Under the pieces are notes generated by a model, which searched no databases, was not told where the DNA came from, and saw nothing but the letters and a program-made list of their open reading frames with translations. Below, piece by piece: positions 47,843-61,106 of a stretch of 64,000 nt of DNA. Made by a program: the position numbers and the translations under genes. Within the stretch, counting starts at the first letter, position 1, and every line of letters begins with the position of its first letter. The stretch is from Pelotomaculum thermopropionicum SI (GTDB lineage Bacteria > Bacillota > Desulfotomaculia > Desulfotomaculales > Pelotomaculaceae): assembly GCA_000010565.1 (NCBI GenBank), contig AP009389.1, positions 682,001 through 746,000 of the forward strand, written 5' to 3'.

Positions 47843-48001
47843 AGCAAGAAAGATGGGTTTGGGGAAGCTATTGAAACCTGATGCTTTTAGTGGTTATCCA
47901 GGGGATATAGAGGCAGGTGCTGGGATTGCCATGAAAACAGATGAACTCAAAAAACAAATAGCAGCAGCCCGGTCGAGGTATTATCGACTGGTTTTACTGG
48001 T
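47843..48001. repeat. Copy of 15946-16100 with the start of brxF
   Basis: Contains the end of the BREX leader and the first 23 codons of brxF, then breaks off 21 bases before the right attP arm. Confidence 0.9.
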
Positions 48002-48021
48002 ACCTTGAACGCTTGTCCCCT

Positions 48022-48066
48022 GTTTCTTTGGTAGACACGGCCCTGTGCGGGGCGGTGCCGTCTAAC
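48022..48066. other. attR: right integration junction of the island
   Basis: The inverted attP arm GTTTCTTTGGTAGACAC is at 48022-48038, followed by 7 bases and the central TG at 48046-48047, after which the ATPase gene resumes. See attL for the symmetry argument. Confidence 0.8.
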
Positions 48067-48326
48067 AAGGCGATCCGGATGGCCGGGATAACCACCCCGT
48101 CCAGCGAGCCGTTATCCGAGGAACAGCAGTGGAACTCCACGTCATAGCCCCTGTCCAGCATGGCTTCCCCGATTTTCCGCATGAAGGTCGATTTTCCCAC
48201 GCCCGGCCCGCCTTTTATGACAAAAATGCGGGTGGCATCCGGCTCGATTATATGATCGTAAAATGAATAAAATCCGTAGGCGGTGTTTCCGCCCGGAAAC
48301 ACTTTGGTCAGCCTGCCCTTGCCCAT
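48047..48326 (-). pseudogene. N-terminal part of two-P-loop ATPase gene, split by the island
   Basis: Starts at ATG 48326 behind GGAGGGAAAAG. 94 codons up to DGTAPH include the first P-loop (VIKGGPGVGKSTFMRKI). After the island junction the frame continues for 17 alien codons and stops at 47994. Its remainder is at 3944-4770. Before integration the gene was a single minus-strand unit of about 1.1 kb. Confidence 0.87.
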
Positions 48327-48640
48327 AATCTTTTCCCTCCTTTTTTCCCGTACCCTCATTAGCCTAAGCAAAGAGAGACACCAGAAAACGGTGCCGCCTT
48401 TATCAGCCTTCCCTGGCGCCTTTGCCCGAGCCGTATAAATTTCTTGAGAGTGCCGCATTATGCTGTATTATTATAGATATGAACGGTTCGGGGTAATATG
48501 ACAAAGGAAGAATTCTTTAAATTGTCTACCTTTTAGCAGCGGGACATGCTAAAATACTGCTAATATCTGCAATAATGCGCCGCCCTGGCCGGTTTTAAGG
48601 TAAGTTTGCCGCAGAAATCCGTATTGAAAGGTGCAACCCT

Positions 48641-49222
48641 ATGCTTGGGGCCCGGATAGTCATCGCCGACGCTGACGCCGGATACCGCAAAAGTTTAAAG
48701 GAAAAGCTAATCCACGCCGGCTATTTTGTGGCAGGCGAGGTAAGTGACGGAAGGAGCGCCCTGAAGGTGATTTTTCAGACCGAGCCCGACCTTGTGATTA
48801 TGGACACAAGGCTGCCGGGGTCGGGGGGTATGGAGATCATCAGGATAATCGAAGAGCACCGGGTCGCCCCGGTAATCCTGCTGACGGCCTCCCACGAGCA
48901 GGAACTTTTGGAGGAGGCAAAAGACTCCTGGATTTTTGCCTGCCTTGTCAAGCCCGTCAGCGATGCGCAGTTATTTTTGGCGGTTGAAATTGCCATAGCC
49001 AATTTCAGAAAGTTTATTAAGCTGGAAGAGGAAAACCGCCGCCTTAAAAAGGCCCTGGAGGAGAGAAAACTGGTTGAAAAGGCCAAGGGACTGGTTATGG
49101 AGGCCAGGGGCCTGAGTGAAAAGGAGGCCTACAAGTTCCTTCAGAAGCTGAGCATGGACAACTGCATTTCCCTTGCCAGGGTGGCAAAGCGGGTAATCTC
49201 CTACTATGAAAAGAAGGTTTAG
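48641..49222 (+). CDS. ANTAR-domain response regulator, transcription antiterminator
   Basis: 193 residues. A receiver domain with DAD at 10-12, phosphoacceptor Asp55 in VIMDTRLPG and the Lys in CLVKPV. A coiled coil (LEEENRRLKKALEERKL) links it to an ANTAR domain (KAKGLVMEARGLSEKEAYKF, then SLARVAKRVI). ANTAR proteins bind tandem hexaloop RNA hairpins and prevent terminator folding. Such hairpins occur in the leaders of the glutamine and glutamate synthase genes that follow, its probable targets. Confidence 0.9.
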   Translation: MLGARIVIADADAGYRKSLKEKLIHAGYFVAGEVSDGRSALKVIFQTEPDLVIMDTRLPGSGGMEIIRIIEEHRVAPVILLTASHEQELLEEAKDSWIFACLVKPVSDAQLFLAVEIAIANFRKFIKLEEENRRLKKALEERKLVEKAKGLVMEARGLSEKEAYKFLQKLSMDNCISLARVAKRVISYYEKKV

Positions 49223-49265
49223 GCTTTGCGATAAGTTATGTATACAATATTCTTTTCTGTAATCA

Positions 49266-49293
49266 TTGATTTATTTGATTAGATTGCTATAAT
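49266..49293 (+). promoter_or_regulatory. Promoter of the first glutamine synthetase-like gene
   Basis: TTGATT (49266-49271) and TATAAT (49288-49293) with a 16-base spacer, just upstream of the attenuator at 49311. Confidence 0.6.
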
Positions 49294-49310: not shown

Positions 49311-49387
49311 CATAGCTTTGTGGGGCAACGGCGTCCCGTGAAGGCTATTACCTCCGGTAGTGGTCTTTGTGGGGCGTTTATTTTTTG
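49311..49387 (+). promoter_or_regulatory. ANTAR-type attenuator upstream of the first glnA-like gene
   Basis: Second hairpin: GGGGC (49322-49326), hexaloop AACGGC, GTCCC (49333-49337). Its 3' strand is also the 5' strand of a terminator stem: CGTCCC (49332-49337) pairs with GGGGCG (49371-49376), followed by TTTATTTTTT. The first hairpin (49311-49322) is weak. The loop has A at 1 and G at 4 as in ANTAR target loops. Confidence 0.65.
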
Positions 49388-49409
49388 GCAGAAAGGAGGC
49401 TGCGGCAGT

Positions 49410-50738
49410 CTGAAAGCATTAACCAAAGAGGAAGTTTTAGACAGGGCAAAAGAGTACAACGTTAAATTCATCCGCCTTCAATTTACCGATATTTTCGGGA
49501 CTTTCAAGAATATTGCGGTTACGGTGGAGGAGCTGGAACGGGCGCTGGAAGGCAGGGTCATGTTTGACAGCTCTGTCATCGAGGGTTTTGTTCACAACAA
49601 GGAAAGCGACATTTACCTTTACCCCGATCCGTCAACCTTCGAGATCTTCCCCTGGCGGCCCAGGGACGGGGCCGTGGCCCGCTTAATCTGCGATGTATAT
49701 TCACCGGCAGGGGAGCCTTATCCCGGCTGCTCGCGCTCCGCGTTAAAGAGGGTTCTGAAAAAGGCGGCGGATATGGGATTTCACCTCCGGGTCGGCGCCC
49801 AGATAGAATTCTTCCTTTTCCAGACCGACAGCCAGGGCAAGCCCACCACCATCACCCACGACCAGGCTGGTTACTGCGACCTGTCCCCGGTGGACCTCGG
49901 TGAAAACGCCAGGCGGGACATGGTTTTGACCCTGGAAGAGATGGGGTTTGAGATTTCTTCCTCCCATCACGAGAAGTCGGCCGGGCAGCACGAGATTTTC
50001 ATTAAGGAGGACAGCGCGCCGGCCATTGCAGACAAAATTGCCACTTTTAAGTTCGTAGTCCGCACCATTGCCCAGCGGCACGGCCTGCACGCATCTTTCA
50101 TGCCCAAGCCCGTGAGCACCCTGAACGGTTCCGGGATGCACCTGCACCATTCCCTGTGGAGCAACGGCAGGAATATGTTTGACGATCCGGCCGGCTACAT
50201 GGGCTTAAGCCGGACGGCGCTGCACTATATAGGGGGCATTCTGCGGCATGCCCGCTCCATTACTGCCATTGCCAACCCCCTCGTAAATTCCTACAAGCGC
50301 CTTCTGCCCAGCGAATTGTGCCCGGTGCTGGTGGCCTGGTCCGAACAAAACCGCAATACCATGCTCCGCGTCCCTGCCCAGCGGGGGGACGGAACCAGGA
50401 TTATTCTCCGCAGTCCGGACCCGACCTGTAACCCCTACCTGGTTCTGGCCGCCACGCTGGATGCAGGGCTCACCGGAATAGCCGAGGGAATAGAGCCGCC
50501 TCCGCCGCGGCCGGAAAACGATCTCGATCCCAGGGCGTTGAGAAAGCTGGTCAGAAAGGAAGGGCTTCCCCGCAACCTGGGAGAGGCGCTGCGCCATCTG
50601 GCCGAAGACCGGGTGATCCGGCGGGCCGTGGGCGAGTGCATTTCGTCGCGCTTCCTCGAAAGCAAGGAACTGGAGTGGGAGCGCTTTCAAGCCCAGGTGC
50701 ACCAGTGGGAGCTGGACGAGTACCTGATTAATTATTAG
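49410..50738 (+). CDS. Glutamine synthetase-like protein lacking a metal-ligand Glu
   Basis: About 443 residues. Aligned by eye with the two other synthetases of this window it keeps [17 protein letters not shown] and NPYLVLAA, but TRIELRSPD is TRIILRSPD here (Glu to Ile, a metal-binding position in type I synthetases), RIPAKRG is RVPAQRG and FDGSSIEG is FDSSVIEG. It may use another amine or act as a regulator. The start is unsure: a CTG at 49410 follows AGGAGG; GTG 49320 lies in the attenuator and is unlikely. Confidence 0.75.
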   Translation: MKALTKEEVLDRAKEYNVKFIRLQFTDIFGTFKNIAVTVEELERALEGRVMFDSSVIEGFVHNKESDIYLYPDPSTFEIFPWRPRDGAVARLICDVYSPAGEPYPGCSRSALKRVLKKAADMGFHLRVGAQIEFFLFQTDSQGKPTTITHDQAGYCDLSPVDLGENARRDMVLTLEEMGFEISSSHHEKSAGQHEIFIKEDSAPAIADKIATFKFVVRTIAQRHGLHASFMPKPVSTLNGSGMHLHHSLWSNGRNMFDDPAGYMGLSRTALHYIGGILRHARSITAIANPLVNSYKRLLPSELCPVLVAWSEQNRNTMLRVPAQRGDGTRIILRSPDPTCNPYLVLAATLDAGLTGIAEGIEPPPPRPENDLDPRALRKLVRKEGLPRNLGEALRHLAEDRVIRRAVGECISSRFLESKELEWERFQAQVHQWELDEYLINY

Positions 50739-50901
50739 CCGTCCCAGCGGCTCTAATAAATAATTTCAAATTAATTAATTGGAAAGGAGGGCAGGGCAAG
50801 CGGAATAATCCGTCACAGGAAAAGTTTCCAAAAATAGAAAAATTTAAAGAGAGAGAAAGAATTTAAAGAGAGAGAGATTTAATTCAGGAGGATGGTAACA
50901 T

Positions 50902-52479
50902 ATGACATTCAGCAAGGGTATCAACTCTACTGCAGCTACGCTGACAAAACTGCGTACCGGCAACGACAAGTGCGAATTCAGCGGCATGTGCGTTACCTGT
51001 CTGGACGGGTGCGTCGGCCTCTGCGAGGTGGGCAAGTCGTCCATCCGGGCCAAGGAGATGCTTTATCCGCAGCCTTTCGGCAAGATTACCACCGCTTCCC
51101 AGAAGGATTACCCGGTTGACTATTCCCATTTCAACATTATGGGCACGGCAGTCGGCGCCGTAGGTATCGAGGCGGATTCGGACAAGGCCATTTTCCCGGC
51201 CGTCAGCCTGGAAGCTGAAGTCGGCGCGGCCAACAAGATTAAGCTTAACCTGCCCATCGTGGTTGCTGCAATGGGTTCCACCAACGTGGCGGCCGACAAC
51301 TGGGAGCACCTGGCCGCCGGGGCGGCGATCTGCGGTGTGGGCATTGTTATAGGCGAAAACGTGTGTGCAATGGACCCCAACGCCGAAATAAAGAACGGCC
51401 GGGTGGTGCATTCGCCCAACCTGGCCAGGCGGATCAAAGACTTTCAGAGGTGGTACAACGGCAAGGGATTCATTGCCGTCCAGGCCAATGTTGAGGACAC
51501 CATGCTGGGCGTCCAGGAATACGCGCTGGAAAAGCTCGGCGTTGATGCCGTTGAAATAAAGTGGGGCCAGGGGGCCAAGGACATCGGCGGTGAAGTCAAG
51601 CTGAACACCCTGGAGCGGGCGCTTCAGCTCAAGAGCCGCGGCTATATCGTGCTGCCCGATCCGGAAGACCCGAAGGTTCAGGAGGCCTACCGGATGGGAG
51701 CCTTCAAGGAGTTCGAGCGGCATTCCCGGGTCGGCATGGTCAACCAGGAGAGCTTTAACGCCCGGGTCGAGGAACTCCGCAAGGCGGGGGCGAAGTACGT
51801 CATGCTCAAGACCGGCGCCTACCGTCCGGCAGACCTGGCCAGGGCCGTAAAATTTGCCTCCGACGCCAGAATCGACCTGCTTACCGTTGACGGCGCGGGC
51901 GGCGGAACCGGCATGAGCCCGTGGCGGATGATGAATGAATGGGGGGTTCCCACGGTATACATCCAGGCGCTTCTGGTCAGGTATCTGGACAGGCTGGCGG
52001 CCAAGGGAGCCTTTGTTCCCCCGGTGGCCATTGCCGGCGGGTTTACCCTGGAAGATCACCTGTTCAAGGGTCTCGCCATGGGCGCCCCGCACATCAAGGC
52101 CATCGGCATGGCCCGTTCGCCCCTCACCGCCGCCATGGTCGGCAAGACCGTCGGCGAGGCCATTAAGAACGGCAAGGTGCCGCCCGAGCACAAGAAGTAC
52201 GGCGAGTCTATCGAGCAGGTCTTTATTGCGGCGGCCGAACTGAAAGACAAACTGGGCAGCGATTTCGAAAAACTGCCGGTCGGAGCCATCGGCGTGTACA
52301 GCTATTTTGAGCGTCTGGCCCAGGGTCTCAGGCAGTTCATGTGCGGCGCCCGGAAATTCGCCCTGCAGTACATTACCAGGAACGACATTGCTGCCCTTAC
52401 CAGGGAGGCGGCGGAAATTTCCGGCATCCGCTACATCATGGACATAGATTCCGAAGAGGTAGACCAGATTTTAGGCTGA
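50902..52479 (+). CDS. FMN-binding glutamate synthase family protein
   Basis: 525 residues, AGGAGG eight bases before the ATG. Near the N-terminus is a Cys cluster (CEFSGMCVTCLDGCVGLC) for an Fe-S centre. The rest is the FMN barrel of glutamate synthase domain 2: VEIKWGQGAKDIGGEV, DLLTVDGAGGGTGMSP, IAGGFTLEDHLFKGLAMGA. No glutaminase domain, so it relies on free ammonia or a partner, or makes a related reaction. Sits between glutamine synthetase genes, which fits nitrogen assimilation. Confidence 0.82.
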   Translation: MTFSKGINSTAATLTKLRTGNDKCEFSGMCVTCLDGCVGLCEVGKSSIRAKEMLYPQPFGKITTASQKDYPVDYSHFNIMGTAVGAVGIEADSDKAIFPAVSLEAEVGAANKIKLNLPIVVAAMGSTNVAADNWEHLAAGAAICGVGIVIGENVCAMDPNAEIKNGRVVHSPNLARRIKDFQRWYNGKGFIAVQANVEDTMLGVQEYALEKLGVDAVEIKWGQGAKDIGGEVKLNTLERALQLKSRGYIVLPDPEDPKVQEAYRMGAFKEFERHSRVGMVNQESFNARVEELRKAGAKYVMLKTGAYRPADLARAVKFASDARIDLLTVDGAGGGTGMSPWRMMNEWGVPTVYIQALLVRYLDRLAAKGAFVPPVAIAGGFTLEDHLFKGLAMGAPHIKAIGMARSPLTAAMVGKTVGEAIKNGKVPPEHKKYGESIEQVFIAAAELKDKLGSDFEKLPVGAIGVYSYFERLAQGLRQFMCGARKFALQYITRNDIAALTREAAEISGIRYIMDIDSEEVDQILG

Positions 52480-52488
52480 AAATATATA

Positions 52489-52517
52489 TTGCCCTGGCTT
52501 AAAAAATAAGATATAAT
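52489..52517 (+). promoter_or_regulatory. Promoter upstream of the second ANTAR gene
   Basis: TTGCCC (52489-52494) and TATAAT (52512-52517), 17-base spacer, followed by the attenuator at 52541. Confidence 0.6.
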
Positions 52518-52540
52518 GGCGATGTAAAGCTGATACTTTG

Positions 52541-52614
52541 GATACGAGGATGTATCTGCGTGACCCTGGCAATGATGCCCTCTTCAGGTTGTTTAACCTG
52601 TGCGAGGGCTTTTC
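52541..52614 (+). promoter_or_regulatory. ANTAR-type attenuator upstream of the second ANTAR gene
   Basis: Hairpin 1: GATAC, loop GAGGAT, GTATC (52541-52556). Hairpin 2: GGC, loop AATGAT, GCC (52568-52579). The 3' strand of hairpin 2 begins a terminator stem GCCCTC (52577-52582) / GAGGGC (52604-52609) with TTTT. Suggests that this regulator is itself under ANTAR control. Confidence 0.7.
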
Positions 52615-52644
52615 TATTAGTTATTCTGACAGGAGGCAGGCGCA

Positions 52645-53220
52645 ATGGGAGAATATAGAGTTGTAATAATTGACAGCGATGCCACCTGGAGAAGGAACAT
52701 TAAGGCCATGCTGGCCAAAATGGGCTATTGGGTAATAGGTGAAGCCGAAGACGGGGTGAGCGGCTTGAAGCTGGTCCGGACCAGGCAGCCGGATCTCGTC
52801 ATTATCGAGGCCTTCCTTCCGGGAATGGACGGCCATGAGGTAGCCCGCATCATTCATGAAGATAAACTGGCCCCGGTTGTGCTGATCGGCAACTCCACCC
52901 AGCAGAATATTATTGAAAAGGCCAAGGCAGCCAGAGTGTTTGCCTTTTTAATGAAGCAGGAACTGGAGTACAACCTTATTCCGGCGGTTGAGCTGGCTTT
53001 AATGAATTACCAGGAGATAGTAAGGCTGGAGAACCAGGTAAAGGAATTAAAGGACACGCTTGAAACCAGGAAGGTGGTGGAGCGGGCCAAGGGTATCCTG
53101 ATGGAGACCATGGGGATATCTGAAACCGAGGCGTTCAAGCGGATTCAGAGGCAGAGCATGAACAAGCGCATTTCCATGCGCGCGGTGGCCGAAGCCATTA
53201 TCCTGGCCCATAACCTGTGA
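52645..53220 (+). CDS. ANTAR-domain regulator with a pseudo-receiver (Glu at the phosphoacceptor)
   Basis: 191 residues, related to the protein at 48641 over its length. In the receiver the phosphoacceptor position 55 is Glu (VIIEAFLPG) rather than Asp, and the Lys-Pro after it is LMKQE. The ANTAR domain is intact ([20 protein letters not shown], then [10 protein letters not shown]). Glu at this site often mimics phospho-Asp, so the protein may be active without phosphorylation. Confidence 0.88.
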
Positions 53221-53242
53221 ACAAAAAAATATACATGCAGAC

Positions 53243-53335
53243 GGGTACGCTGGTGTGCCCGGGCGGGCAAAGGAGCCCTTAAAGGCGGAGAAATTTTACG
53301 CTTCGCTTTTAGGGGTTTTGTTTTTTACCCGGCGC
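53243..53335 (+). promoter_or_regulatory. ANTAR-type attenuator upstream of the second glnA
   Basis: Hairpin 1: GGGTAC, loop GCTGGT, GTGCCC (53243-53260). Hairpin 2: GGGC, loop AAAGGA, GCCC (53265-53278). Overlapping terminator: CCCTTAAAGGCG (53276 onward) with CGCTTTTAGGGG and TTTTGTTTTTT. Confidence 0.75.
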
Positions 53336-53368
53336 TCTTTACAAAACATTTACCGGAAGGTGGTTGTC

Positions 53369-54699
53369 ATGGAAATTACCGAAAAAAGCCAGCTGATCGA
53401 CAAGGCCAGGAACCTGGGCGTAAAATTTATCCGCCTCCAGTTTACCGACATTTTCGGGGTGCTGAAGAACGTCGCCATTACCATCGAGCAGCTGGAGAAG
53501 GCGCTAAACGGGGAGCTGATGTTTGACGGCTCTTCAATCCACGGGTTTGCCAGAATCGAAGAGTCGGATATGTACCTCCGGCCCGACCCAAAAAGCTTTG
53601 TGGTATTTCCCTGGCGGCCCAGGGACGGCGGGGTGGCGAGGCTCATCTGCGACGTTTACAATCCCGACGGGACGCCGTTTGAGGGAGATCCCCGCTGTGC
53701 CTTAAAAAAGGTGCTGGCCGAGGCGGCGGAAATGGGCTATACCATGCAGGTCGGCCCGGAGCTCGAGTTTTTCCTGTTCCATGTTGACCAGGACGGCAAC
53801 CCCACCCTGCACACGCACGACCGGGCCGGGTACTTTGATCTCACGCCGGTTGATCTCGGTGAAAACGCCCGGCGGGACATGGTGCTCATCCTGGAGCAGA
53901 TGGGCTTTGAAATAGAGGCCTCCCACCACGAGGTGGCGCCCGGCCAGCACGAGATCGACTTCAAGTATTCGGACGCCCTGGACGTTGCCGACAAGATCAT
54001 GACCTTTAAAATGGTTGTGCGCACCACGGCTCAGCGGCACGGCCTGCACGCCACCTTCATGCCCAAGCCGGTTTTTGGAATTAACGGCTCCGGCATGCAC
54101 ATGAACCAGTCGCTGTTCAAGGACGGTAAAAACGCTTTTTACGATCCCTCCGCCCCTGATCAGCTCAGCGAAACGGCCAGGTATTATATCGGCGGGCTGA
54201 TCAAGCACGCCCGGTCCTTTACGGCAATCACCAACCCCACCGTGAACTCGTACAAACGCCTGGTGCCCGGCTACGAGGCCCCGGTTTACATTGCCTGGTC
54301 GGGCCGCAACAGAAGCCCGCTGATCCGCATCCCGGCCAAGCGGGGCAGCTCGACCAGGTCGAGCTGAGGAGCCCCGACCCGGCCTGCAATCCGTACCTGG
54401 CCATAGCCGCCGCTTTGAAGGCCGGGCTGGACGGCATCAAGAACAAAATATTGCCACCCCCGCCGACCGACCAGAATATTTACCAGATGAGCGAGGAGGA
54501 GCGGAGGAAGCTGGGCATCCAGAGCCTGCCGGCCAGCTTGATGGAGGCCCTGGAGGAGCTGTCGAAGAACGAGGTGATAAAGAGCGTTCTGGGCGAGCAT
54601 ATTTACAGGAAGTTTGTGGAGGCTAAAAGGCACGAATGGAACAGCTACCGGGTCCGGGTTCATCCGTGGGAAGTCAATGAGTACCTGACAAAATTTTAA
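53369..54699 (+). pseudogene. glnA: Glutamine synthetase type I with a one-base frameshift
   Basis: Starts at ATG 53369. The frame is typical glutamine synthetase ([58 protein letters not shown]) up to [11 protein letters not shown] at 54356, then a shifted frame ends it at 54367. One missing G (AGGTCGAG for AGGGTCGAG) explains it: read with the correction the product continues with [18 protein letters not shown] to 54699 and would have normal length. Either a recent inactivation or an error in the sequence. Confidence 0.85.
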
Positions 54700-54734
54700 A
54701 TAAATCAGCAATTAGTTTTGCTACCATCCTCCTG

Positions 54735-54774
54735 GTCCTTTGCCGTGGCTCTACCGGGCAAAGGACACTTTTTA
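54735..54774 (+). terminator. Intrinsic terminator of the second glnA
   Basis: GTCCTTTGCC / GGCAAAGGAC stem, 10 bp, followed by ACTTTTT. Confidence 0.85.
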
Positions 54775-54866
54775 CCCTTTGGCAATTAAAAAATGTTTAA
54801 TTAACTATAGCTTTTTAAAAACTCTGATGGTATACTAATGCGTAGTTATAAACAAAAAAATATTCA

Positions 54867-54949
54867 GGGTACAGCGCCGTACCCGTGAAAGGGGCAACGA
54901 GGCCGGATGGACGGGTAATTTTTATTGCCTGTGCAGGTGGCCTCTTTTT
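54867..54949 (+). promoter_or_regulatory. ANTAR-type attenuator upstream of the third glnA
   Basis: Hairpin 1: GGGTAC, loop AGCGCC, GTACCC (54867-54884). Hairpin 2: GGC, loop AACGAG, GCC (54893-54904). Terminator: GAGGCC (54899-54904) / GGCCTC (54939-54944), TTTTT. Both loops have A1 and G4. The clearest example in the window together with the gltB leader. Confidence 0.85.
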
Positions 54950-55001
54950 CATAACTTGGCCCCCATTAAAAGAATTCAATTTAGAAGAAAGGTGTGAACG
55001 T

Positions 55002-56333
55002 ATGGCTAAGCTCACCAACGACGATGTGCGTAATCTGGCCAAGGAACTGGGGGTTAAGTTCATCCGCCTGCAGTTTACGGACATTTTCGGCATCCTGAAG
55101 AATGTTGCCATTACGGTGGAGCAACTGGACAAGGCCCTGGACGGGGAGTTAATGTTTGACGGCTCTTCCATTGAGGGCTTTGTGCGCATTGAAGAATCCG
55201 ACATGTATCTGAGGCCGGATCCTTCAACTTTTGTGGTTTTTCCCTGGAAACCCAGAGACGGCGCGGTGGCCAGGCTGATCTGCGACATTTACAATCCGGA
55301 CGGCACCCCCTTTGAAGGCGATCCGCGCTATGTTTTGCGCAGGGCCGTCCGGGAAGCCGGGGAAATGGGTTATACCATGAACGTAGGTCCGGAAGCCGAG
55401 TTCTTTCTGTTCCATGTTGACAGCGACGGCCGGCCCACCACCGTTACCCACGACCGGGCGGGCTACTTCGATCTGACGCCGGTTGACCTGGGGGAAAACG
55501 CCCGGCGGGATATGGTGCTGACGCTGGAACAAATGGGCTTTGAAATAGAGGCCTCCCACCACGAGGTGGCGCCCGGCCAGCACGAAATCGACTTCAAATA
55601 TTCGGATGCCCTGGATATAGCCGACAAGATCGTCACCTTCAAATTTGTAGTGCGGACCATAGCCCAACGGCACGGCCTGCACGCCACCTTCATGCCTAAA
55701 CCGATTTTCGGCATCGCAGGTTCCGGCATGCACCTCAACCAGTCCCTGACCAAGGGCGGCGAGAACGCCTTTTACGACCCTGCCGCCTCCGACGGTCTGA
55801 GCAAGGACTGCCTGTACTATATCGGCGGACTGATGAAGCACATCAAGGCCATTTCCGCAATTACCAACCCGACCGTGAATTCTTACAAGCGCCTTGTTTC
55901 CGGCTACGAGGCGCCGGTGTACATTGCCTGGTCCGCCCATAACAGGAGCCCGCTGATCAGGATTCCGGCCAAGCGGGGGGCTTCCACGCGGATAGAGCTG
56001 CGGAGTCCCGACCCGTCCTGCAACCCCTACCTGGCCCTGGCGGTTTGCCTCAAGGCAGGCATCAGCGGGATTAAGAACCGGATAATGCCGCCCAGCCCGT
56101 GCAACCGGAATATTTACGAAATGACCCCGGACGAGAGGAAGGAGCATGGAATAGACAGCCTGCCCGAGAGCCTCAACGAAGCAGTGCGGGAGCTGTCCAG
56201 GGACGAATTAATTCAGGAGGCCCTGGGCGAGCACGTTCTCAACCGGTTCATCGAAGCAAAGAAAATTGAATGGGACCGTTACCGCATCCAGGTTCACCCC
56301 TGGGAGATAGAAGAGTATCTTACCAAGTTTTAA
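55002..56333 (+). CDS. glnA: Glutamine synthetase type I
   Basis: 443 residues from ATG 55002 behind GAAAGGTG. All usual blocks are intact: [69 protein letters not shown] and NPYLALAV. Short form without the adenylylation loop typical of beta-type enzymes, as in Firmicutes. The only apparently fully functional copy of the three. Regulated by the attenuator upstream. Confidence 0.93.
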
Positions 56334-56381
56334 AAGGGGCTTTAAAACAGTTAACAGGCTGGCCAACTAACGGAATACCCG

Positions 56382-56478
56382 GGATACAGCGCCGTATCCA
56401 GATCAAGTTGGGCAATGAGGCCCGCGCAGCGGATTGCACGTTTAATTTTCGTGCGCTGCAGCGGGGCCTTTTTATTTT
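56382..56478 (+). promoter_or_regulatory. ANTAR-type attenuator upstream of gltB
   Basis: Hairpin 1: GGATAC, loop AGCGCC, GTATCC (56382-56399), same loop as in the third glnA leader. Hairpin 2: GGC, loop AATGAG, GCC (56411-56422). Terminator: GGCCC (56419-56423) with GGGCC (56464-56468), and TTTTTATTTTT. Confidence 0.85.
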
Positions 56479-56522
56479 TCTCAATTCATGTAACTAGACA
56501 AGGAAAGAAAGGTTGCGGGAGC

Positions 56523-59500
56523 ATGAAGACAGGTGGATTACCCCCCAGGCAGGGCCTTTACGACCCCTGGTATGAACATGACGCCTGCGGTATCGGGTTT
56601 GTGGCCAATATCAAGGGGAAAAAGTCAAACGACATTATTCGCAAGGCGCTTACCGTCTTGCTCAATCTGGACCATCGCGGAGCAAGGGGCTCTGAATTGA
56701 ATACAGGCGACGGCGCAGGAATTCTCATGCAAATTCCGCATGCCTTTTTTGTCAGGGAATGTGCCGGAGAGGGCATAAACCTGCCTTCTCCGGGCAGCTA
56801 CGGGGTGGGAATGCTCTTTTTGCCCGTTGAAGACGAGCTTCGCCAGAAGTGCGAGAGGGAGCTGGAAAAAATTATCCGCGAGGAAGGCCAATACGTGCTC
56901 GGCTGGCGGACGGTTCCCACGGACAACCGCACCCTTGGCGAGACTGCCAGGCTGGCCCAGCCCTTCATCCGCCAGATATTCGTCGCCAAAAGCCGGGAGC
57001 TTGCAGACAGGCTGGCTTTTGAACGCAAGCTTTACGTCATCCGCAAAAGAGCCGAGAAAGAGGTGCGGGCAAAGCACCTGCAGGAGGGGGGAACCTTTTA
57101 CTTTGCCAGTTTTTCGTGCAGGACGATTGTCTACAAGGGAATGCTTACGCCCCAGCAGCTTACCTGGTTTTACCCAGATTTGAACGATCCGTCGATGGAG
57201 AGCGCCCTGGCCCTGATCCATTCCCGGTTCAGCACCAACACCTTTCCCAGCTGGGAGCGGGCCCATCCCTACCGTTACCTGATTCACAACGGCGAGATCA
57301 ACACCCTGCGCGGCAACATCAACTGGATGCATGCCCGTCAGGCCATGTGCGAGTCGGAGTTGTTCGGCGGGGATATGGCCAAAGTGTTCCCGGTAATCGA
57401 CCAGAACGGCAGCGACTCGGCCATGTTTGACAACTGCCTGGAGTTCCTGCACCTGACCGGCCGCTCCCTGCCCCACGCGGCAATGATGATGATACCCGAA
57501 CCGTGGTCAAACCACGAAAGCATGAGCGATGAAAAGAAGGCCTTTTACGAGTACCACAGTTGCCTGATGGAGCCATGGGACGGCCCCGCCTCCATTGCTT
57601 TCACCGACGGCTCCATAATCGGGGCGGTGCTCGACCGGAACGGCCTGCGCCCGTCCCGCTACTACGTTACCAGAGACGATCTGATCGTGCTGGCATCTGA
57701 AGTGGGCGTGCTGGACATTCCCCCGGAGGACGTCGTGCTGAAAGAGCGGCTCAGGCCGGGGCGGATGCTCCTGGTGGACACCGAAGAGGGGCGCATCGTC
57801 AGCGACGAGGAGCTGAAAAAGCGCATTGCCACGGAACACCCCTACCGCCGGTGGCTGGAGCGGCACCTGGTAGATCTTGATGAACTGCCGGAGGCGCCCT
57901 GCGCGCCCGGCCCGGACCGGCAGACCCTGCTTCAGCGCCAGCAGGTTTTCGGCTACACCTTCGAGGATCTCTTTAAAGTGCTGGAGCGCATGGCCAGAGA
58001 CGGGGTCGAGCCGGTCGGGTCGATGGGCAACGATGCCTCGCTGGCCGTGCTGTCGGAGAAGCCCCAGCTTCTTTACAATTACTTCAAGCAGCTTTTTGCC
58101 CAGGTGACCAACCCGCCGATAGATTCCATCCGGGAAGAAATCATTTTTGCCGTTGAGACCACCATCGGGCCGGAAAAAAACCTGCTCAGGCCGGAACCCG
58201 CCAGTTGCCGCCGGATCAGGCTGAAGGCGCCGGTCCTGACCAATGAGGAACTGGCCAAGATCAAGAATATCAACCTGGACGGCTTCAAAGCGGCAACCCT
58301 GCCCATCCTGTTCAACCCGGCGGAGGGCAGCCGGGGCCTTGAGGCGGCCATGGATGACCTGTGCCGCGAGGCCGGAAGGGCCATTGATGGCGGTGCCAAT
58401 TTGCTGATTTTATCCGACCGGGGTATAGGGCCGGAAAAGGCGCCCATACCCGCCCTGCTGGCCGTGTCGGGCCTGCATCACCACCTGATCCGGGAAGGAA
58501 AGCGGACGAAGGTCAGCCTTTTGCTGGAGTCTGGGGAGCCGAGAGAGGTGCACCACTTTTCCGTCCTGCTGGGTTATGGGGCCAACGCCGTCAATCCGTA
58601 CCTGGTCTTTGAAACGCTGGAGGATATGGTCCGCCGGGGGCTGCTTGAGGGCATCACGCTGAAGGAGGCGGTGAAGAATTACCTGAAGGCGGCCGTTAAG
58701 GGCGTGGTCAAGGTGGCCTCCAAGATGGGTATTTCGACCATTCAAAGCTACTGCGGGGCCCAGATTTTCGAAGCCATCGGCATTCACCGGTCGGTTATCG
58801 ACAAATACTTTACCTGGACCGCTTCACGGGTGGGAGGCGTCGGGCTGGCCGAGATAGCCCGGGAGGCTGAGCTCCGCCACCGGCGCGCCTTTTCGCCCGG
58901 CTGCGACGCCGCCCTGGATTCCGGTTCCGTTTACCAGTGGCGGCATGACGGCGATGAGCACATGTTCAACCCGGAAACAATTGCGCTTTTGCAGGAGGCC
59001 TGCCGGAAAAACGACTACCGGCTTTACAAAAAGTACTCGGCTGCGGTCAACAGCCAGAAGAACGCCCTGCGCCGGTTTCTGGAGTTCAGGCCGGGCCGTA
59101 CGCCCATTCCCATTGACGAGGTGGAACCGGTGGAGTCGATCTGCCGCCGTTTTAAAACCGGGGCCATGTCTTTCGGCTCCATCAGCAAGGAGGCCCATGA
59201 GTGCCTGGCCATTGCCATGAACCGCATCGGCGGCAAAAGCAACACCGGTGAAGGCGGGGAGGACCCGGCCCGTTACCGCCCCCTGCCGAACGGGGATTGC
59301 CTGCGCAGCGCCATCAAGCAGGTGGCTTCGGGCAGGTTCGGCGTTACCAGCGAGTATCTGGTCAATGCCGATGAACTCCAGATTAAAATGGCCCAGGGGG
59401 CGAAGCCGGGCGAAGGCGGCCAGTTGCCCGGCCGCAAGGTGTACCCCTGGATAGCCAAGGTAAGGGGCACGACGGCGGGCGTGGGCCTGATCTCGCCGCC

Positions 59501-61106
59501 GCCGCACCACGACATTTACTCGATAGAAGACCTGGCCGAGTTGATTCACGACCTGAAGAACTCCAATCCGAACGCCAGGATTAACGTCAAGCTGGTTTCC
59601 GAAGCCGGCGTGGGAACCATAGCCGCCGGGGTGTCCAAAGGGCGGGCCGACGTGGTGCTGATCAGCGGTTACGAAGGGGGCACCGGGGCCTCGCCCCGCA
59701 CGAGCATCAGCCATGCCGGCCTGCCCTGGGAACTGGGCGTTGCCGAGACCCATCAGACCCTGGTACTGAACAATTTGCGCGACAGGATTGTCATCGAAAC
59801 GGACGGCAAGCTGATGACGGGCCGCGACGTGGCCATTGCGGCACTGCTGGGGGCGGAGGAATACGGCTTTGCCACGGCCCCCCTGGTGGTTATGGGCTGC
59901 ATCATGATGCGGGTATGCAACCTCGATACCTGCCCGGTGGGCATAGCCACCCAGAACCCGGAGCTCCGCAAGAATTTCAAGGGGGATCCCCAGCATGTGG
60001 TCAACTTTATGAGGTTTGTCGCCCAGGAACTGCGGGAAATCATGGCAGAGCTGGGCTTTAGAACGGTAAATGAGATGATCGGGCGGACCGATGTGCTTCA
60101 GCAGAAACGAAATATAGATCACTGGAAGGCAAAGGGGCTGGACCTGTCGGCCCTGCTCTGGCAGCCGGACGTTCCGGAAAGCGTCGGGAGGTACTGCAGG
60201 GTTTCCCAGTATCACGGACTGGAAAAATCCCTGGACCGGCAGGTGCTGTTGAAGATATGCGAGCCGGCCCTGGAACGCGGCGAGCCGGTTGAGGCCAGGT
60301 TGCCCATCCGCAACACCAACCGGGTGGTCGGCACCTTGCTGGGATACGAGGTGACAAAGCGTTACGGCGGGGCCGGCCTTCCCGACGACACCATCCGCCT
60401 CTACTTCGAAGGTTCTGCCGGGCAGAGCTTCGGCGCTTTCGTTCCCAGGGGGATTACGCTCATCCTGGAGGGGGACGCCAACGACTACTTCGGCAAGGGC
60501 CTTTCGGGCGGCAGGCTGATCGTTTTTCCGCCGGCCAAATCAACCTTTGTCCCCGAAGAGAATATCATTATCGGCAACGTTGCCTTTTACGGCGCCACTT
60601 CGGGGGAAGCCTACATACGCGGGGTGGCCGGGGAGCGGTTTTGCGTCAGGAACAGCGGCGTCATGGCCGTGGTGGAAGGAGTCGGCGATCACGGCTGCGA
60701 GTATATGACCGGCGGACGGGTGGTGGTGCTCGGGACAACCGGCAGGAATTTCGCAGCCGGCATGTCGGGCGGGATTGCCTACGTCCTTGATGAGGACGGC
60801 ACCTTTCCCGGGCGCTGCAACTACGAAATGGTCATCATTGAAAAACTTGAAGACCCCGGTGAAATTGCCGCGGTTAAAGAAATGATCCGGCGGCATCTGA
60901 AATATACCCGGAGCCGGAAGGCCCGGGCGGTGCTGGACGACTGGGACAGGATGGTTTCCAGGTTCGTAAAGGTTATCCCGAAGGATTACAAGCGCATGCT
61001 CGAGGCTATCGACCGGGCGCACAAAATGGGCCTGACCGGCGACGAGGCAATAATGGTAGCTTTTGAAGAAAATCTGAAAGACGCGTCCCGGATCAGCGGG
61101 AACTAA
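56523..61106 (+). CDS. gltB: Glutamate synthase large subunit
   Basis: 1527 residues from ATG 56523. A class II glutaminase domain with the nucleophile Cys in HDACGIGF (residue 22, after a short propeptide), a central domain, an FMN barrel ([15 protein letters not shown]) with a [3Fe-4S] Cys set ([13 protein letters not shown]), and the C-terminal beta-helix ([21 protein letters not shown]). It transfers the amide of glutamine to 2-oxoglutarate with GltD, which starts 20 bases downstream. Confidence 0.95.

Follow-up and report, generated by a model that had tools for sequence, protein, structure and literature searches.

Single- and dual-hairpin leaders, two putative classes of ANTAR target, in a nitrogen-assimilation locus of Pelotomaculum thermopropionicum

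A 64,000-nucleotide stretch of the Pelotomaculum thermopropionicum SI genome (positions 682001-746000 of its single 3,025,375-base contig; here, the window) carries two genes for ANTAR-domain response regulators, RR1 and RR2, in the order RR1, leader, glutamine synthetase gene GS1, glutamate-synthase-like gene, leader, RR2, leader, GS2 (frameshifted), leader, GS3, leader, gltB. The five leaders probably represent the known ANTAR-target RNA type in a nitrogen-assimilation regulon with two parallel antitermination arms. Four of them have two hairpins (dual, or D, class), and the one before GS1 has a single hairpin (S class). With moderate confidence, drawn from sequence comparison, we propose that the latter exemplifies a second ANTAR attenuator class, characterized by a single hexaloop of the form GGGC-AAnGnn-GUCC with a G-U wobble, a stronger antiterminator, no recruitment hairpin, and a dedicated regulator clade with Cys, Ser, or Ala in place of EutV Arg175, and that within one cell it serves a nitrogen arm separate from that of the dual class. 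Nitrogen genes preceded by dual elements have been predicted before; the single-hairpin form is the interesting part, and from its sequences this kind looks widespread, conserved, and paired with a distinct regulator branch.

An initial annotation, made from the letters of the window, had described five leaders here, and sequence inspection with hairpin and terminator scans places them at 49316, 52539, 53242, 54867, and 56382 (window positions, plus strand throughout unless stated). The terminator-overlapping loops that it listed (AACGGC, AATGAT, AAAGGA, AACGAG, and AATGAG) are all present, each with A at position 1 and G at position 4 (A1 and G4), and in 5/5 leaders hairpin scans and folds assign the 3' strand of the hexaloop hairpin to an intrinsic terminator. 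The annotation treated the leaders as one set, however, and missed their division into two classes. The leader at 49316 follows a putative promoter at 49266..49293 (TTGATT, 16 nt, TATAAT; from sequence and a script score). Its single hexaloop antiterminator hairpin, found by scans and by the R3 model described below, spans 49316..49343 (11 bp, loop AACGGC at 49327-49332), and the sequence and fold place an intrinsic terminator at 49332..49386 (21-bp stem, U tract), with GTCCCGTGAAG common to both. The 5' strand of the hairpin, CTTTGTGGGGC, is an exact letter repeat of the terminator 3' strand, so that two mutually exclusive folds, the antiterminator at -10.8 and the terminator at -27.6 kcal/mol, compete for one middle strand. 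Hairpin scans and an alignment of 12 GS1 leaders revealed no upstream hairpin (P1) in this leader, which was kept out of the dual class because it has one hairpin only. In that alignment, built by gene position without motif selection, GGGCAA and GTCC (stem GGGC/GUCC) are invariant in 12/12 leaders, as are loop A1, A2, and G4 and the TTG and TATA of the promoter, and a terminator lies downstream. Upstream of the promoter and behind RR1, a box, TGTATACAATATT (49239-49251), occurs once in the window and is found again, little altered, in most of the 12 aligned relatives; it is possibly the DNA-binding site of another regulator.

In each of the remaining four leaders there are two hexaloop hairpins, P1 and P2, with stems of 3 bp or more, and a terminator overlapping P2. 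Before RR2, the element at 52539..52580 combines P1 52539-52558 (GAGGAT) with P2 52568-52579 (AATGAT), and the terminator occupies 52577..52615 (fold, -17.5 kcal/mol). Before GS2, P1 53242-53261 (GCTGGT) and P2 53265-53278 (AAAGGA) form the element at 53242..53278, overlapped by a terminator at 53275..53326 (fold, -20.8 kcal/mol). The element before GS3 (54867..54905; P1 54867-54884, AGCGCC; P2 54893-54904, AACGAG) and that before gltB (56382..56424; P1 56382-56399, AGCGCC; P2 56409-56424, AATGAG) precede terminators assigned from sequence and fold at 54899..54949 and 56418..56479. The two AGCGCC hairpins of the initial annotation are thus the P1s of the last two leaders; the P1s at 52539-52558 and 53242-53261 were not in its inventory. 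Linkers between P1 and P2 are short, as judged against the eut reference range of 5-12 nt: 9, 8, and 9 nt in the leaders at 52539, 54867, and 56382, and in that at 53242 either 3 nt with full stems or 5 nt when P1 is taken as 6 bp and P2 as 3 bp. The P1 loops at 54867 and 56382 have A1 and G4, and those at 52539 and 53242 have G1 with G4; position 1 of the P1 loop is A in 52/66 dual elements. All four window P2 stems read GGC/GCC.

Covariance models were built from sequences outside the window's family. R2 comprises 34 of 36 candidate dual elements (L122:622 and L175:2335 were omitted as doubtful), none from the 25 genomes listed as belonging to that family, and includes one element each from L037 and L040, which came without a family assignment; R3 comprises 29 single-hairpin leaders. 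The motifs used to pick the members were drawn with the window leaders in view, so the hold-out covers the sequences and not the idea. With filters off, R2 recovered the four dual leaders of the window, at 52539 (35.8 bits, E 6.5e-8), 56382 (33.6 bits, E 2.6e-7), 53242 (31.3 bits, E 1.1e-6), and 54867 (25.3 bits, E 4.5e-5), the next match, inside gltB, being at 0.033. R3 matched 49321-49384 at E 1.2e-11, followed by 0.37. Rfam models at E<=5 gave four matches in the window, none at the leaders. The initial annotation read the leaders of the glutamine synthetase genes, of gltB, and of one ANTAR gene as ANTAR targets. This reading is supported by R2 and R3, by the terminator overlap in all five leaders, by relatives that carry these leaders at the corresponding genes, and by co-occurrence with ANTAR matches across the order (below).

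Genome-wide, R3 gave the 49316 leader at E 5.5e-10 and a next match at 0.042, and R2, whose genome figures rest on 150 of 1394 first-look candidates, added a match at genome positions 651241-651275 (E 0.0043) and nothing more below 0.07. At E<0.01 this is the sole addition to the window leaders by either model. It is a sixth ANTAR-type leader, of the dual class (L101:1741-1776; genome 651240-651275), and precedes a gene for an ammonium transporter (PF00909, E 1.8e-134). By eye, a TTGACA/TATAAT promoter and an overlapping terminator accompany its P1, TGATAC-AGGGCT-GTATCA, and its P2, AGC-AATGGC-GCT. The regulon that had been drawn within the window thus also extends to a gene outside it. R2 matches at genome 2927720, 2995610, and 2137402 were rejected since they overlap long open frames, as was an S-pattern match at 113138, which by eye sits in apparent coding sequence; weak R3 matches at 2296972, 1116589, and 2233883 were left aside. 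One motif collection kept 30 of 31 matches, that on the minus strand of the window being dropped.

The two classes recur across the order. In sets obtained by motif scans of the loci fetched by then, which may contain chance matches, a P1-like hairpin lies within reach of 2/47 S hairpins (shuffled rate 0.049) and of 66/90 D hairpins (shuffled 0.026). The S hairpin starts 20-38 nt after the -10 box (median 25; 43 of the 47 have a scored promoter), about where P1 of the dual class begins (median 24 nt; 27/66 with a scored promoter). S hairpins are also stronger than P2, with medians of 5 bp and -6.5 kcal/mol (n = 46, after omission from this comparison only of L187 at 4222, which looks spurious) against 3.5 bp and -3.4 kcal/mol (n = 66). 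The strict S pattern is present in 37/113 genomes of the order, that is, in 37/99 ANTAR-bearing and 0/14 ANTAR-less genomes; dual elements at E<=1e-3 are present in 92/113, comprising 90/99 with an ANTAR match and 2/14 without (one genome without a dual match was counted by subtraction). Among 35 S-motif places, some of which were fetched for their ANTAR gene, 25 lie before GS1, and an ANTAR gene stands immediately upstream of 23. Elsewhere the S motif precedes a ferredoxin-like protein (L165, L167, L170, L171, L173, and L175, alike by eye; that of L171 is 4Fe-4S by Pfam), a glutamate-synthase-like gene (L177 and, by a weaker match, L192), and a Metal_resist-domain protein (L166).

The regulators divide correspondingly. 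The initial annotation counted two ANTAR proteins among the leaders, and PF03861 has exactly two matches in the whole genome, both inside the window. RR1 (48641..49222; Pfam, alignment, and tree) and RR2 (52645..53220; Pfam and alignment) each exceed the Pfam cut-offs for both the receiver (PF00072) and ANTAR. RR1 retains the phospho-acceptor Asp (DLVIMD) and has the ANTAR motif SMDNC, with Cys at the EutV Arg175 position; in RR2 the acceptor is Glu (DLVIIE) and the motif is SMNKR, as in EutV. The RNA contacts of EutV include Met172, Asn173, and Arg175 (PMC8934654; here and below, statements on published work refer to the passages of the cited papers that were covered), and the alignment shows that RR2 keeps all three and RR1 only the Met. 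The S leader often lies just behind a member of an ANTAR clade with Cys, Ser, or Ala at the Arg175 position. An S motif occurs within 450 nt downstream of 35/36 non-Arg genes and 0/52 Arg genes, a count that includes many loci fetched for the S pattern; among the family loci fetched by the ANTAR domain alone (L003-L027), and so free of that selection, the figures are 13/13 and 0/12. For 40 further ANTAR genes, with the prediction fixed beforehand, they are 19/22 non-Arg and 1/18 Arg; these genes bear no strict pattern match because such places had been fetched earlier. Of the three non-Arg misses (L201, L202, and L218), L218 carries a variant in which A-U replaces the G-U of the S stem. In a tree of 128 ANTAR proteins, a single branch (support 100/99) has all 58 non-Arg proteins, RR1 included, on one side. 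Genome G002 had been considered for testing as a case of RR1 without RR2, but its GS1 match spans just residues 181-442 and RR2 and gltB matches are lacking at the locus, which may reflect misassembly; it was set aside.

In P1, both sides have changed in 4/6 pairs, and pairing holds in 96.9% and 97.1% of all cells (29 and 34 distinct sequences); paired cells and covariation score exceed all 500 shuffles, and the count of pairs changed on both sides was reached in 3 and 11 of 500. Alignments A1, A3, and A4 were chosen by motif, and A1 and A3 also required five or more pairs in the P1 stem, which means that the pairing evidence for P1 is partly built in; the frequency of P1 relative to shuffles is stronger evidence for it than covariation. 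P2 is invariant and its motif was used for selection, so no covariation evidence comes from it. RNAalifold predicts the hexaloop hairpin on 29 S leaders. Their inner four pairs are fixed by the search motif, and the outermost pair, which lies outside the motif, alone varies (GC 15, AU 10, GU 2, mismatched 2).

In the mechanism that we propose, each leader would by default fold into its intrinsic terminator and transcription would stop. An active ANTAR dimer would capture the hexaloop hairpin whose 3' strand is the 5' strand of the terminator, and the captured hairpin would block the terminator so that RNA polymerase reads on. One arm would consist of RR1 (Cys type) acting on the single-hairpin leader of the GS1/glutamate-synthase-like operon behind its own gene; as this leader opens directly with the stronger antiterminator hairpin, no recruitment by P1 would be needed. 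In the other arm, RR2 (canonical Arg type) would act on the dual leaders of its own gene, GS2, GS3, gltB, and the distant ammonium transporter gene, with the leader before RR2 providing positive feedback. Our hypothesis is that RR1 would read single-hairpin leaders and RR2 dual ones. The genes controlled suggest nitrogen status as the signal, and the Glu at the acceptor position of RR2 leads us to infer action independent of phosphorylation. The receivers of the 88 proteins behind the first count above (52 Arg, 36 non-Arg) carry Glu in 34, Asp in 14, and another residue or gap in 4 of the Arg type, and Asp in 26, Glu in 8, and another residue in 2 of the non-Arg type; given how frequent non-Asp receivers are, many may work without phosphorylation, as with AmiR, which has been called a pseudo-receiver (PMC3369936).

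Several observations weigh against this explanation. Two genomes (G106 and G022) have dual elements and no ANTAR match, and 12/35 S-motif places have no ANTAR gene just upstream, although one of them (L176) looks like a chance match. Cys-type L201 and L202 have no downstream S motif and Arg-type L219 has one; G018, a genome put at 85% complete, has an S-class leader and only an Arg-type ANTAR protein was found in it. Because the tree shows a single split, the counts relating residue 175 to leader class are not independent, and little weight attaches to P values. A P1-like hairpin is present in 11 of 41 R3 matches outside the order, four of them behind Cys-type ANTAR proteins. In vivo, EutV leaders that lack P1 cannot be induced (PMC3369931), and the binding of NasR to a single hairpin is about 10-fold weaker than to two (PMC7496416); an antiterminator with one hairpin could therefore be weak.

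Alternatively, all five leaders could be read by the same regulator or regulators, with RR1 and RR2 alike in specificity and the single leader a lower-affinity target. S and P2 loop sequences do overlap (AATGGC, AAAGGC, and AACGAC occur in both), G018 would fit, and EutV binds isolated P1 and P2 hairpins (PMC8934654). We nevertheless consider common reading unlikely, because S leaders accompany the Cys/Ser/Ala clade and their stems read GGGC/GUCC in 12/12 GS1 leaders, against GGC/GCC in the four window P2 stems. That the 49316 leader is a decayed dual element, having lost P1 and with it the response, would agree with the EutV result but appears very improbable: no P1-like hairpin accompanies 45 of the 47 leaders of its class, which come from many families and of which one looks spurious, and in the 12 position-aligned leaders A1, A2, G4, and the stem are invariant with a terminator following. 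It is equally hard to credit that the hairpins are attenuators for a metabolite, another protein, or an antisense RNA with the ANTAR genes as coincidental neighbors. This reading would be compatible with the lack, either way, of any Rfam match at the leaders. Against it, the hexaloop A1 and G4 with a C-G closing pair match the determinants found by NasR SELEX (PMC7496416) and by EutV mutation (PMC3369931), and the elements track ANTAR genes across the 113 genomes.

Beyond the order, R3 matches 49/398 sampled genomes of the phylum at E<=1e-4. We examined 41 of 46 R3 matches in phylum loci, omitting the five weakest (two of the 41 are from the order), and 30 have no P1-like hairpin. In some of the other 11 (L252, L281, and L285), both hairpins have stems of the GGC/GUC type and the element follows a Cys-type ANTAR protein, so the Cys clade may go first with this stem type and with the single form in most, not all, lineages; the L252 and L285 elements are possible intermediates between the classes. 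Single-hairpin leaders at L250, L251, L254, L259, L266, and L267 precede similar proteins (GLDDILHGLRLGDNVVWQVD or alike), of which a 48-residue piece has no Pfam match.

Among known systems, EutV/eut of Enterococcus faecalis (PMC3369931, PMC8934654) shares the receiver-ANTAR regulator, A1/G4 hexaloops, P2-terminator overlap, and several leaders per locus. It differs in that EutV is phosphorylated at Asp54, where RR2 has Glu; the eut leaders described are dual, unlike 49316; and two P1 loops here, unlike those of eut, start with G. ANTAR nitrogen regulons were predicted in 2012 for Desulfotomaculum reducens and D. acetoxidans (PMC3369931), where, as here, glutamate synthase and further nitrogen genes are preceded by dual elements, but the model used required two hairpins and would have passed over single-hairpin leaders; an actinobacterial survey also required dual stems (PMC8164766). 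NasR/nasF and AmiR/amiE likewise have a hexaloop pair with terminator overlap (PMC3369931, PMC7496416); their regulators have other signal-receiving parts, and the passages covered describe no single-hairpin leader for them. Single hexaloops in EutX and some Mycobacterium RNAs have been suggested as ANTAR targets (PMC8934654), the same idea as for 49316, but those are expected to act without a time limit from transcribing polymerase, whereas the 49316 hexaloop is itself the antiterminator of an attenuator. Walshe 2022 (PMC8934654) redefined the minimal binding motif as one hexaloop, stated that both hexaloops must be contacted to stop termination, and urged further work on single hexaloops. 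Our search of titles and abstract starts, with most subscription journals and supplements outside it, found no single-hairpin ANTAR attenuator class.

The current model holds that an ANTAR protein needs two hairpins to beat a terminator. A natural set of single hexaloops, with a matching clade and with dual leaders in one genome, makes the single-hexaloop question directly testable; residue 175 is a candidate specificity residue, and searches that require two hairpins seem to miss part of the ANTAR targets. A transcriptome study of P. thermopropionicum reported that amtB transcription is very low and that in coculture the glutamate synthase genes and four glnA genes are down (PMC6046458), a pattern that fits common control without proving it.

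Relatives show much of the same gene order by synteny comparison, and six of the eight closest RR2 relatives are named Pelotomaculum. GS1 (49410..50738; PF00120 and PF03951) has an apparent CTG start at 49410-49412, placed by alignment with relatives, which have TTG or ATG thereabouts. The glutamate synthase-related protein gene (50902..52479; PF01645, synteny) has no leader element in the R2 and R3 searches of the window and is presumably cotranscribed with GS1. An apparent one-base frameshift near 54365 divides the glutamine synthetase gene GS2 (53369..54699; Pfam and relatives) into two open frames, 53369-54367 and 54415-54699, where relatives such as L028 and L034 have a single continuous match; GS2 is either a pseudogene with a retained leader or the product of a sequencing error. 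The glutamine synthetase gene GS3 (55002..56333; Pfam) and the glutamate synthase large subunit gene gltB (56523..61106; four Pfam domains) complete the locus. A Pfam scan of nine window proteins found no kinase; the rest of the window and the genome lay outside that search. On the minus strand at 47994-48458 is a short P-loop-like open frame with Pfam matches below cut-off, and in L099 a 376-codon plus-strand open frame, similar to it by eye, precedes RR1.

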